DNA from: Thermodesulfomicrobium sp. WS
Lineage (GTDB): Bacteria; Desulfobacterota; Desulfovibrionia; Desulfovibrionales; Desulfomicrobiaceae
Reading direction: 5' to 3'
DNA: 64,000 bases
NCBI RefSeq assembly: GCF_027925145.1
Contig: NZ_AP027130.1
Location: 744,001 to 808,000 of the forward strand
Position 1 is the stretch's first letter; each line of letters opens with the position of its first letter. The translations under genes were made by a program, and so were the position numbers. Shown piece after piece: positions 3,119 to 12,954 of this stretch. A model generated the notes under the pieces. That model saw only the letters and a list, made by a program, of their open reading frames with translations. It made no database searches and was not told where the DNA came from.

Positions 3119-4732
3119 TTAGAGTTCTCGGATGGCCTGGGTGAGCTTGCGCTGGTCGTCCTTGAAGAGCTTGTAGTTGATGGAGTCTTCCAGGGCCTGG
3201 CGGCTGGCCTCAATGATGTTGTAGGAGACGCCCACCGTGGTCCAGCGCGCCTTGCGGTCACCGGATTCGATGAGCACGCGCACGAAAGACGCCGTGCCGC
3301 TGGTGTCGTTTCCGTTTTTGGGCCGGGAAAGGACCCGTACCTTGAAATCGAGAAGCTGCATCTCCGCCAAGGCGGGGTAGAACTTCTCCAGACCCTTGCG
3401 CAGGGCGTTGTCCATGGCGTTGACCGGGCCGCGTCCGGTGGCGGCGGTGTGCTCCAATAGGCCGCCCACCCGAAGCATCACTGTGGCCTCGGTAAAGGGC
3501 TCGCCGTCTTCGGTGAAGAGCGAGTCGAGGATGCGGATGGCGGCGATGCGAAAATACGTTCTCGCCCGACCGAGAACGCGGTTGACGAGCAATTCGTAGG
3601 ACGCCTCGGCGGCGGCGTATTCGTATCCCGCATCTTCGCGGTTTTTGAGCTCGGTGAGGAGCTCCAGGACAAAGGGATCGCCTTTGTCGAGCTCGAACCC
3701 GTATTGGCGGGCCTTGTAGAGGATGTTGGACTGGCCTGATTGGTCGGAAAGCACGATGCGCTGGCGGTTGCCCACGGCCTCGGGGGGGATGTGTTCGTAG
3801 GTGCGGGGATTTTTCCGCACTGCCGCCACGTGCACGCCGCCCTTGTGGGTGAAGGCCGACTTCCCGGTAAAGGGTTGGCGGGCAAAGGAGCGCAGGTTGG
3901 CCACGTCCGCCACGAATTCGGCGGTGTCCGTGAGGCGGCAAAGCCGGCCTTCGGGCAGGCAGGGCATACCCAGCTTGAGTTCCAGATTGGCGATGACCGA
4001 GCAGAGGTTGGCATTGCCGCAGCGTTCCCCATAGCCGTTGATGGTCCCCTGCACCTGGATGGCCCCATGCTGCACCGCCACGATGCTGTTGGCCACGGCC
4101 AGCTCGCTGTCGTTGTGGGTGTGGATGCCGAGCTTGGCGTCCGGCAGTTCACGCCGCACGGCATCCACGGCCGCGGCGATTTCATGCGGCAGGCAGCCGC
4201 CGTTGGTGTCGCAGAGCACGAGCACGTCGGCCCCGGCTTCGTGGGCGGTGCGCAGGCAGGCGAGGGCGTAGGCCGGATTGGCCTTGAAGCCGTCGAAGAA
4301 ATGCTCGGCGTCGTAGAAGAGTTCCGCGGCATGGGGGCGCAGGAAGCGCAGCGAGTGGGCAATGAGCTCCAAGTTGCGCTCCAGCGGTATCTTGAGGGCG
4401 TCGGTGACGTGGATGTCCCAGGTCTTGCCGAAGATGGTGAGTGCCGGGGCCTGGCTGGCGATGAGTTCGGTGAGGTTGGTGTCTTTGTCCGCGGAGGTCT
4501 TGGCCGCATGGGTGGAGCCAAAAGCAGCGATGCGGGCATGACTTAGGGCATATTGGCGGATTTCTTGGAAAAAGCGTTTGTCTTTGGGGTTTGCCCCAGG
4601 CCAACCGCCTTCGATATAGGCCACGCCGAGTTCATCGAGCTTGGTGGCGATGCGCAGCTTGTCATCCGTGGAGAAGGAGATCTCCTCGCTTTGATTGCCG
4701 TCGCGCAGGGTGGTGTCGTAGATCTGGATCAT
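3119..4732 (-). CDS. cimA: Citramalate synthase
   Basis: The 537-residue enzyme joins pyruvate and acetyl-CoA to (R)-citramalate, the first step of the threonine-independent route to 2-oxobutyrate and isoleucine. It belongs to the isopropylmalate/homocitrate synthase family. It shows the metal and substrate motif DTTLRDGNQ (residues 6-14), the HTHND metal ligands, GTINGYGERCGNANL, and a C-terminal allosteric domain (about 390-530). The length fits the long citramalate synthase type rather than LeuA. The gene stands alone, preceded by a leader peptide and terminator (4750-4886) that make up an isoleucine-type attenuator. The next gene on this strand is prfC, beyond the convergent small gene. 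Confidence 0.93.
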   Translation of the reverse strand: MIQIYDTTLRDGNQSEEISFSTDDKLRIATKLDELGVAYIEGGWPGANPKDKRFFQEIRQYALSHARIAAFGSTHAAKTSADKDTNLTELIASQAPALTIFGKTWDIHVTDALKIPLERNLELIAHSLRFLRPHAAELFYDAEHFFDGFKANPAYALACLRTAHEAGADVLVLCDTNGGCLPHEIAAAVDAVRRELPDAKLGIHTHNDSELAVANSIVAVQHGAIQVQGTINGYGERCGNANLCSVIANLELKLGMPCLPEGRLCRLTDTAEFVADVANLRSFARQPFTGKSAFTHKGGVHVAAVRKNPRTYEHIPPEAVGNRQRIVLSDQSGQSNILYKARQYGFELDKGDPFVLELLTELKNREDAGYEYAAAEASYELLVNRVLGRARTYFRIAAIRILDSLFTEDGEPFTEATVMLRVGGLLEHTAATGRGPVNAMDNALRKGLEKFYPALAEMQLLDFKVRVLSRPKNGNDTSGTASFVRVLIESGDRKARWTTVGVSYNIIEASRQALEDSINYKLFKDDQRKLTQAIREL

Positions 4733-4749: not shown

Positions 4750-4777
4750 AAAAAAACCCCGGGCCGAGGGTCCGGGG
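4750..4777 (-). terminator. Attenuator terminator in the cimA leader
   Basis: On the minus strand CCCCGG (4777-4772) pairs with CCGGGG (4762-4757) around a 9-base loop and is followed at once by seven T (4756-4750). It lies only 17 bases before the cimA ATG, so it can only act as a conditional stop before the gene, not as the end of another transcript. Confidence 0.85.
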
Positions 4778-4825
4778 TGGTGCTGTGTGGTCTATGTGGC
4801 TGTTACGCGCACGCCGCCCCGAACC
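4769..4825 (-). promoter_or_regulatory. Antiterminator pairing of the cimA attenuator
   Basis: Minus-strand GGTTCGGGG (4825-4817), inside the 3' half of the leader peptide gene, can pair with CCCCGGACC (4777-4769) over nine base pairs including one G-U. The second segment contains the 5' arm of the terminator, so the two structures exclude each other. A ribosome stalled at the upstream Ile codons would leave 4817-4825 free and favour read-through. A ribosome reaching the stop codon at 4803-4805 would cover it and let the terminator form. Confidence 0.72.
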
Positions 4826-4886
4826 GCCCGCTGGCGATACGGATCATGCCGATAATGGAAAGAATGGGGCATAGCGTGGTGTGCAT
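4803..4886 (-). CDS. Isoleucine-rich leader peptide of cimA, 27 residues
   Basis: A 28-codon frame (with TAA) on the minus strand. Residues 8-17 read ILSIIGMIRI, five Ile in ten, just upstream of an antiterminator segment and a terminator. Ile is the end product of the citramalate pathway, so this is the expected control codon. A short GGAG lies 2 bases before the ATG, which is closer than usual. If the TTGACA at 4916-4921 is the -35, transcription would start about at the ATG itself, so translation could be leaderless. The peptide should have no function apart from its translation. Confidence 0.75.
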   Translation of the reverse strand: MHTTLCPILSIIGMIRIASGRFGAACA

Positions 4887-4892
4887 GGCTCC

Positions 4893-4921
4893 CCGGTATG
4901 TGGTAGATAATCGATTGTCAA
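4893..4921 (-). promoter_or_regulatory. Probable promoter of the cimA leader
   Basis: A perfect TTGACA (4921-4916) is followed after 17 bases by TACCGG (4898-4893). The -10 is poor apart from its leading TA, as seen at other likely promoters here. The predicted start falls at about 4886, the first base of the leader peptide. The divergent nagZ may use GATAAT at 4906-4911 in the same DNA, without a clear -35. Confidence 0.48.
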
Positions 4922-4960: not shown

Positions 4961-6109
4961 ATGAAGAGAGGCAGGTGGTGGGCTTGGGCGGTGACGGGGG
5001 CGCTTTTGGCCTTGATTCTGCCGGCTCGGGCGGGGGCCGAGACGGATCTGCGCACCATGCTTGGCCAAATGCTTCTGGTAGGGTTCCGAGGGGCCGAGAT
5101 CACCGAAGACGCGCCGATTGTGCGGGATATCCAGGCCTTTCATATCGGCGGGGTGATCCTTTTCGACCGGGACGTACTTTCTGGTGGCGCGCGCAATATC
5201 CTTTCCCCAGCGCAGGTGCGCACGCTGACCGCATCCTTGCAGGCGGCCGCGTCCATTCCGCTTTTCATCGGTGTGGATCAGGAGGGCGGCCGGGTACGGC
5301 GGCTGCGGGAGGAACATGGTTTCCCGGCGCTACCGTCCGCCTGGGAGATGGGCCAAGGGACTGAGGCCGCCACCCGCAGGTGGGGGGAGCGTACCGGCGC
5401 CATGCTGGCGGACGTGGGGATCAACCTCGATTTTGCCCCGGTGGTGGACGTGGCGGTGGACCCGCAAAGTCCGGCCATTGGGGCCTTGGGCCGCAGCTTT
5501 GCCGCAGACCCGCAGGCCGTGGCCCGCCACGCCCTGGCTTTTGCCCAGGGGCTGCGAAGTCAGGGGGTACTTGCCTGCCTCAAACACTTTCCCGGGCATG
5601 GCAGCGCCCGCACGGATTCGCACCTCGGCATCACCGACGTCACCGCCACCTGGAGCCCGGCCGAACTCATCCCCTATGCGCGCATCCTGCCCACAGGGGT
5701 GGCCTCATGCGTCATGACGGGCCATCTCTTTGTGCGCAGCAAGGACGCCGCCGCGCCGGCGACGCTTTCGGCCGCCATCGTCACCGGGATGTTGCGTCAA
5801 GAACTGGGGTTTGATGGCGTGGTCATCTCCGACGATCTGCAGATGCGGGCCATCACCGACCATTTCGGCCTGGAGGAAGCGGCCGTCCGGGCGGTGGCCG
5901 CTGGTGTGGACATGCTCCTGGTGGGCAACAACCTCCAGTACGCCCCCGATGTGGTCCCCCGCGTGGTACAGGCCCTGGAGGCCGCCGTGGCTGCGGGGCG
6001 TCTTTCTCCGCAGCGCATCGAGGCCTCGTGGCGGCGCATCATGCACCTGAAGGCGGAACTGCCTGCGGGCGGGCGCGGCCCGGAGGCGCGCACCCGCCTG
6101 GAGGATTAG
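4961..6109 (+). CDS. Beta-N-acetylhexosaminidase, family 3 glycosidase (NagZ-like), with signal peptide
   Basis: The 382-residue product matches family 3 beta-N-acetylglucosaminidases that cut GlcNAc from muropeptides in cell-wall recycling. Visible motifs are GVDQEGGRVRRL near residue 107, the family signature KHFPGHGSARTDSH near 207 (His and Asp of the acid/base dyad) and VISDDLQM near 288 with the nucleophile Asp. Unlike cytoplasmic NagZ of enteric bacteria it has a clear signal peptide (residues 1-26, ending ARAGA), so it probably acts in the periplasm. A GAAGG ribosome site precedes the ATG. It converges on the oxidoreductase operon with a 4-base overlap and no visible terminator. Confidence 0.9.
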   Translation: MKRGRWWAWAVTGALLALILPARAGAETDLRTMLGQMLLVGFRGAEITEDAPIVRDIQAFHIGGVILFDRDVLSGGARNILSPAQVRTLTASLQAAASIPLFIGVDQEGGRVRRLREEHGFPALPSAWEMGQGTEAATRRWGERTGAMLADVGINLDFAPVVDVAVDPQSPAIGALGRSFAADPQAVARHALAFAQGLRSQGVLACLKHFPGHGSARTDSHLGITDVTATWSPAELIPYARILPTGVASCVMTGHLFVRSKDAAAPATLSAAIVTGMLRQELGFDGVVISDDLQMRAITDHFGLEEAAVRAVAAGVDMLLVGNNLQYAPDVVPRVVQALEAAVAAGRLSPQRIEASWRRIMHLKAELPAGGRGPEARTRLED

Positions 6110-9972: not shown

Positions 9973-10048
9973 TGGCGTCCCCAAGGGGATTTGAACCCCT
10001 GTTACCGGCGTGAGAGGCCGATGTCCTGGGCCACTAGACGATGGGGAC
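9973..10048 (-). tRNA. tRNA-Glu (anticodon CTC), copy 2 of the tandem pair
   Basis: A 76-base cloverleaf with encoded CCA (complement of 9973-9975). Acceptor stem GTCCCCA/TGGGGAC, anticodon loop CTCTCAC giving CTC, and T loop TTCAAAT. It differs from the neighbouring copy at three positions: the D arm, the outermost anticodon-stem pair (G-U instead of G-C) and the T loop. Confidence 0.95.
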
Positions 10049-10057
10049 CCGGAAGAG

Positions 10058-10133
10058 TGGCGTCCCCAAGGGGGTTTGAACCCCTGTTACCGGCGTGAGA
10101 GGCCGGTGTCCTAGGCCACTAGACGATGGGGAC
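10058..10133 (-). tRNA. tRNA-Glu (anticodon CTC), copy 1 of the tandem pair
   Basis: A 76-base cloverleaf with encoded CCA, a fully paired anticodon stem CCGGC/GCCGG and loop CTCTCAC. It is separated from the second copy by only 9 bases and from tRNA-Lys by 5 bases, so the three are surely processed from one transcript. Confidence 0.95.
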
Positions 10134-10138
10134 GCACG

Positions 10139-10214
10139 TGGTGGGCCGTGAAGGGATCGAACCTTCGACTCTCTGCTTAAAAGGCAGATACTCTACCGTC
10201 TGAGTTAACGGCCC
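10139..10214 (-). tRNA. tRNA-Lys (anticodon TTT)
   Basis: A 76-base cloverleaf with encoded CCA. Acceptor stem GGGCCGT/ACGGCCC, anticodon loop CTTTTAA giving TTT, T loop TTCGATC. It is the first tRNA of the Lys-Glu-Glu cluster and lies 18 bases after the ABC permease stop. Confidence 0.96.
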
Positions 10215-12868: not shown

Positions 12869-12954
12869 TGGTGCCCGGGGCGGGATTTGAACCCGCACGG
12901 CCCGAAAGCCAAGGGATTTTAAGTCCCTGGTGTCTACCGTTCCACCACCCGGGC
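12869..12954 (-). tRNA. tRNA-Leu (anticodon TAA)
   Basis: An 86-base class II tRNA with a long variable arm and encoded CCA. Acceptor stem GCCCGGG/CCCGGGC, anticodon stem AGGGA/TCCCT around loop CTTAAAA, giving TAA. A good promoter sits just upstream and no terminator follows before the ABC permease gene. Confidence 0.96.

Follow-up and report, generated by a model that had tools for sequence, protein, structure and literature searches.

A probable isoleucine-responsive leader-peptide attenuator before the citramalate synthase gene cimA in Thermodesulfobacteriota

The citramalate synthase gene cimA of Thermodesulfomicrobium sp. WS, a sulfate-reducer-type bacterium, is very probably controlled by a ribosome-mediated (leader-peptide) transcription attenuator that would sense charged tRNA-Ile. 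The attenuator, located in the window (the whole 64,000-nucleotide stretch of DNA analyzed here), is supported by its presence, the positions of its parts, their conservation, compensatory pairing, and a fitting ribosome geometry; from these we infer promoter use, leader translation, termination, and a response to isoleucine. The mechanism is ordinary ribosome-mediated attenuation: what is new is the target gene, the lineage, and the recurrence. Rereading the sequence reproduced, base for base, the anatomy given in the original prediction (TTGACA, leader, Ile codons, pairing, terminator, and spacing), and a segment 1:2 hairpin not mentioned there was recognized at about 4842-4819. The features are as follows.

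4916..4921, minus strand: putative -35 hexamer of the leader promoter, TTGACA; present in 18/18 loci
4803..4886, minus strand: leader peptide ORF MHTTLCPILSIIGMIRIASGRFGAACA, 27 codons; an Ile-rich leader is present in 18/18 loci
4836..4865, minus strand: Ile codon cluster, residues 8-17; ribosomes would be expected to stall here when charged tRNA-Ile is low
about 4819..4842, minus strand: segment 1:2 hairpin, CCGTATCGCC AGCG GGCGGTTCGG; overlaps and would compete with the antiterminator
4817..4825, minus strand: antiterminator segment 2, GGTTCGGGG; within the last leader codons
4769..4777, minus strand: segment 3, CCCCGGACC; pairs with segment 2 and also supplies the terminator's 5' arm
4750..4778, minus strand: predicted intrinsic terminator, stem ACCCCGGACC CTC GGCCCGGGGT plus T7; -15.3 kcal/mol
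3119..4732, minus strand: cimA, (R)-citramalate synthase, the gene presumed to be controlled; TIGR00977, 712.8 bits versus a cut-off of 450

The leader ORF runs from an ATG at 4886-4884 to a TAA stop at 4805-4803, and its Ile codons at residues 8, 11, 12, 15, and 17 read ATT, ATT, ATC, ATC, and ATC. Segments 2 and 3 can form 9 bp, one of them G-U. The terminator consists of a hairpin at 4778-4757 followed by seven T at 4756-4750, with 17 nt between the T run and the cimA ATG (4732-4730). The folding energy of the whole leader was ordinary (z = +0.79 in a single-sequence fold), a score that is uninformative for such RNAs because of their alternative structures.

Citramalate synthase converts pyruvate and acetyl-CoA to citramalate and thereby opens a threonine-independent route to isoleucine. 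The predicted identity of the gene product held up, its TIGR00977 score being well above the cut-off; its domains were HMGL-like and LeuA_dimer, and LeuA-type models fell below their own cut-offs. Citramalate synthase is the isoleucine entry in most of the phylum, with cimA found in 222 of the 247 genomes sampled. It is probably the main entry in the window's family, because no protein in 8 family genomes reached the cut-off of TIGR01127, the one threonine deaminase model run (best 72 bits versus 378.75). Within Desulfovibrionales, several complete genomes of genus g12 (G013, G018, G023, G028, G033, G047, and others) had no cimA match at all. In the window, cimA neighbors a divergent nagZ-type beta-N-acetylhexosaminidase gene at 4961, and no minus-strand gene lies close upstream of the leader, so nothing there needs a terminator at 4778-4750. 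The attenuator module accompanies cimA despite differing neighbors, which are a divergent nagZ for the window and lpxB for one relative. No attenuator was found before the main ilvB or the LeuA-like genes of the window's genome. Elsewhere in the window are a minus-strand cluster of three tRNAs (Glu, Glu, and Lys; 9973-10214) and a tRNA-Leu (12869-12954).

Under the proposed mechanism, ample Ile-tRNA would let the ribosome reach the leader stop codon and cover segment 2, whereupon segment 3 would pair with segment 4 and transcription would terminate 17 nt short of cimA. With Ile-tRNA scarce, the ribosome would stall within the Ile cluster and leave segment 2 free to capture segment 3, blocking the terminator and allowing cimA to be transcribed; without any translation, the 1:2 hairpin could compete with the antiterminator. 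For the geometry, the RNA was masked to the 3' edge of the ribosome, assumed to extend 15 nt past the start of the P-site codon, and cut after segment 3. In these folds the antiterminator pairs formed in 18/18 leaders whichever Ile codon the ribosome occupied, and in 18/18 they were abolished once it stood at the stop codon; in truncated folds without a ribosome, the 1:2 hairpin failed to suppress the antiterminator. For the full-length window RNA, stalls at Ile12, Ile15, and Ile17 gave the antiterminator, and placing the ribosome on the stop codon gave the terminator. Full-length equilibrium folds of several relatives favored the terminator at most stalls; the antiterminator must therefore win kinetically, by forming ahead of the synthesis of segment 4, which is also how known attenuators work.

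CimA was sought across the genus, family, and order, and the near set comprised 18 loci from 18 genomes of one family: 3 from the window's genus (g1, window included) and 15 from its sister genus (g3). The full set of TTGACA, Ile-rich leader, antiterminator, and terminator was present in all 18. TTGACA lay 35-51 nt ahead of the leader start, the terminator 17-97 nt ahead of cimA, and the leaders had 20-27 residues with 4-8 Ile (e.g., MKNIIAPISIIIISVIEKSRPGE). Indels between relatives were mostly multiples of three and thus in-frame, which supports translation of the leader. Single residues turned over while Ile content and frame were kept (the two nearest leaders differed by L>I, I>T, and M>I), and the leaders used mainly ATT for Ile (77 of 114 codons), versus ATC in six genes of the window (128 of 154). 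The 1:2 hairpin was present in most relatives (in the sister genus mostly as the counterpart CCGTGAT...ATCACGG) and was weak in L009, L020, L022, and L023; the antiterminator was weakened in L021 and L023, to 7 and 6 of 10 pairs. The leader-peptide attenuator originally proposed is thus supported by both conservation and geometry in 18/18 loci, and the covarying stems and conserved Ile runs expected of it were both found among near relatives. Its loss from relatives, named as what would count against it, was not seen in either genus. The assumption that the attenuator would be Desulfovibrio-wide proved wrong, as it is missing from most of the order.

The combination of a terminator, an ORF with clustered Ile codons, and an antiterminator was found by a dedicated search in 18/18 near loci, in 0 of 1,800 dinucleotide shuffles of their upstream regions, and in 0 of 2,000 shuffled versions of the upstream region in the window; as the search was built after the locus was known, the shuffles measure specificity and are no blind test. 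No match was found in 152 other cimA upstream regions. Over 10 non-identical relatives, 86% of the segment 2:3 cells were paired, and double changes occurred at 4 of the 10 pairs (U-A/C-G, G-C/C-G, and C-G/U-A), a count biased towards pairing since the pairing was itself the basis for aligning the segments. The covariation score exceeded 500/500 column shuffles and all slid registers. In addition, between the genera the run of G in segment 2 and that of C in segment 3 both lose one base, going from 5 to 4.

In the window's genus, TTGACA lies 35 nt from the leader ATG; with a 17-nt spacer, transcription would then begin at the ATG or close to it. A normally spaced Shine-Dalgarno sequence was absent from the leader start in this genus, while the sister genus mostly had 47 nt between TTGACA and ATG together with an AGGA-type site. 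That the leader peptide of the window's genus is read from a leaderless transcript is a conjecture, because the -10 region is poor: no good sigma-70-consensus element was found at the window's leader promoter. In most relatives, conservation extended past the -35 hexamer, with TTGACA followed by ATCGATT; this sequence, TTGACAATCGATT (4921-4909 in the window), has the palindrome AATCGATT in the spacer and is a possible operator.

Such an operator would fit a different account of the locus, in which the terminator is a fixed one or an insulator, the Ile-rich ORF and the 9-bp pairing are coincidental, and cimA is constitutive or answers to a DNA-binding regulator. This reading also gains from the ease with which hairpins arise, as about 9% of shuffled upstream regions held a terminator-like hairpin of some kind. 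We nevertheless regard it as very improbable: terminator, clustered Ile codons, and antiterminator occurred together in 18/18 loci and never in shuffles or the 152 other cimA loci, segments 2 and 3 show compensatory substitutions, and there is no upstream minus-strand transcription unit to insulate. Marginally less probable still is that the leader does no stalling, the ORF encoding instead a small membrane-type peptide with a function of its own, or the RNA being a metabolite riboswitch or T-box. The ORF is indeed hydrophobic with a conserved frame, and T-boxes regulate leuA-type genes (COG0119) in Bacillota (PMC12452182); however, residues other than Ile are freely replaced, Rfam gave no match to either RNA class, and the structured elements are three mutually exclusive hairpins.

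A genuine attenuator might alternatively respond to something other than isoleucine alone, such as a general slowdown of translation or Leu and Val as well. Some relatives' leaders contain 1-2 Leu and 1-2 Val codons, and the cimA leaders of another family (f51) are an Ile/Leu/Val mixture. Yet Ile dominates in the leaders of the window's family (4-8, versus 0-2 Leu and 0-2 Val) and is the product of the pathway, and a mixed signal therefore appears improbable, if less so than the two preceding accounts.

The window's type of Ile attenuator had a restricted distribution. Named Desulfovibrionales relatives surrounded the window's CimA in the CimA tree, which places the window in this order, and in much of the order cimA lies directly behind lysC (aspartate kinase), an arrangement shown for genus g2 of the window's own family by an aspartate kinase match; no attenuator was seen at such cimA genes, nor before lysC in 10 loci with lysC-cimA operons. 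A model built from the 18 near-clade leaders (R1) recovered all of its source leaders and had no strong match elsewhere, and some of its weak matches were evident Phe and Tyr leaders upstream of other genes. When 90 cimA loci were taken from other families of the phylum, a single one (L311) had a convincing Ile leader with a matching terminator, and when its order (that of genome G439) was sampled (L326-L355), an Ile-rich leader and terminator preceded cimA in 27 of 30 loci.

This second cimA attenuator lies about 160 nt before the gene and is typically composed of the antiterminator GACCTGATAATGG and a terminator of CCGTTATCAGG, a loop, and CTGATAACGG, followed by a T run; the terminator is 19-48 nt ahead of cimA in most members. 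Antiterminator cells were paired in 93% of cases and terminator cells in 97%, with covariation in both above 500/500 shuffles. The corresponding model (R2) had matches in 25 of 247 genomes of the phylum, which in the loci read stood before cimA and also before genes reading as ilvB, leuA, and ilvD. The two attenuators share the target gene, the Ile-rich leader, and the antiterminator/terminator logic, whereas the second differs in sequence (CCGTTATCAGG and GACCTGATAATGG), has stronger 1:2 hairpins, and belongs to a separate CimA clade. Homology between them was considered and is disfavored: cross-matches of R1 and R2 exist (mostly 16-26 bits) and reflect shared architecture, because R1 also matches Phe and Tyr leaders, and the CimA proteins of the two groups fall in separate clades with full support.

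Because the second attenuator sits in a separate CimA clade, Ile-attenuator control of cimA probably arose at least twice. An independent gain in the window's family is the simplest reading, favored though not proven; an ancestral cimA attenuator that was lost many times is still conceivable. On balance, we lean towards a joint reading in which Ile control of cimA is recurrent in Thermodesulfobacteriota through independent gains: one in Desulfovibrionales when cimA left the lysC-cimA arrangement, with a leader that may be leaderless in the window's genus, and another that is order-wide in the second lineage, in which similar leaders also precede other branched-chain genes.

Enterobacterial branched-chain operons (ilvGMEDA, ilvBN, and leuABCD) have ribosome-mediated attenuators with product-codon-rich leaders, 1:2, 2:3, and 3:4 segments, and an intrinsic terminator before the first structural gene, and the window's attenuator is built likewise. 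It differs in preceding cimA rather than ilv or leu genes, in a leader with Ile only where the enterobacterial leaders have mixed Ile/Val/Leu, Val, or Leu, in its occurrence in Thermodesulfobacteriota, and in an apparently very short or absent 5' UTR before the leader in its genus. Thr_leader (RF00506) of Rfam follows the same leader-peptide logic with a different amino acid and gene. The window's leader did not match it, and the sole Rfam match among the cimA leaders tested was L338 to this family (33.5 bits, E 0.011, gathering score 55). No amino acid operon leader (Thr RF00506, Leu RF00512, His, or Trp) reached its gathering threshold in the window or eight loci, nor did any Rfam family for the second attenuator, and the T-box (RF00230) had no match in the window at gathering or in the eight loci at E up to 1. 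No description of a cimA attenuator was found in Rfam or the open-access literature, and within these sources the original prediction's view that an Ile attenuator on cimA is undescribed stands. One survey gives only His, Leu, Thr, and Trp attenuators in Rfam at the time and suggests a gamma-proteobacterial origin (PMC3766115). Control by tRNA charging is also exerted by the T-box on branched-chain genes of the leuA type (isopropylmalate, homocitrate, and citramalate synthases) in Bacillota (PMC12452182); unlike the window's leader attenuator, the T-box binds uncharged tRNA directly without translation.

If true, an Ile attenuator on cimA would place the threonine-independent pathway under the control of tRNA charging, and the switch would probably limit enzyme making to isoleucine shortage. 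Citramalate synthase is used in metabolic engineering, and little on its control was found in the open-access literature. Leaders on cimA, ilvB, leuA, ilvD, an archaeal-type aromatic pathway, and symporters suggest a rich set in the phylum that sequence-bound models have missed, and offer a ready test of attenuator convergence.

Several of these leaders were encountered before other genes. In other families of the phylum (L365, L366, L367, L369, L370, L373, and L375), branched-chain leaders with CCGTTATCAG-type terminators preceded genes reading as ilvB, leuA, and ilvD and are predicted to form a related leader family extending beyond cimA. In the sister genus, a second ilvB (L186, L187, and L188) stood behind a leader containing a valine run, MNRITADVSVSLVVVVVVCVVMDALTL, and a strong terminator, together a predicted valine-type attenuator; the main ilvB of that genus had no attenuator. 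Phe-run leaders MRTMSSFSFFFFFFSKETARGRCVRI with a terminator (L215:373-511 and L217:357-488) stood before a gene for 2-amino-3,7-dideoxy-D-threo-hept-6-ulosonate synthase (TIGR01949 match for L215), the enzyme that opens the archaeal-type route to aromatic amino acids. Leaders with Phe/Tyr runs (e.g., MNKAFFFSFTYYYYPDALPRLGVMPCA and MHFYYYYSGHRLWAPDRMCCA) and terminators at L219:392-534, L221:386-526, and L227 (minus strand) were followed by sodium:solute symporter genes (PF00474 for L219 and L221), whose products may be aromatic amino acid transporters under attenuation control. Finally, a Phe leader MQITLFNRSFFFMSLH with a terminator (L229:380-497) preceded a phenylacetate-CoA ligase-like gene, after which came an ORF resembling an ACT-domain protein.
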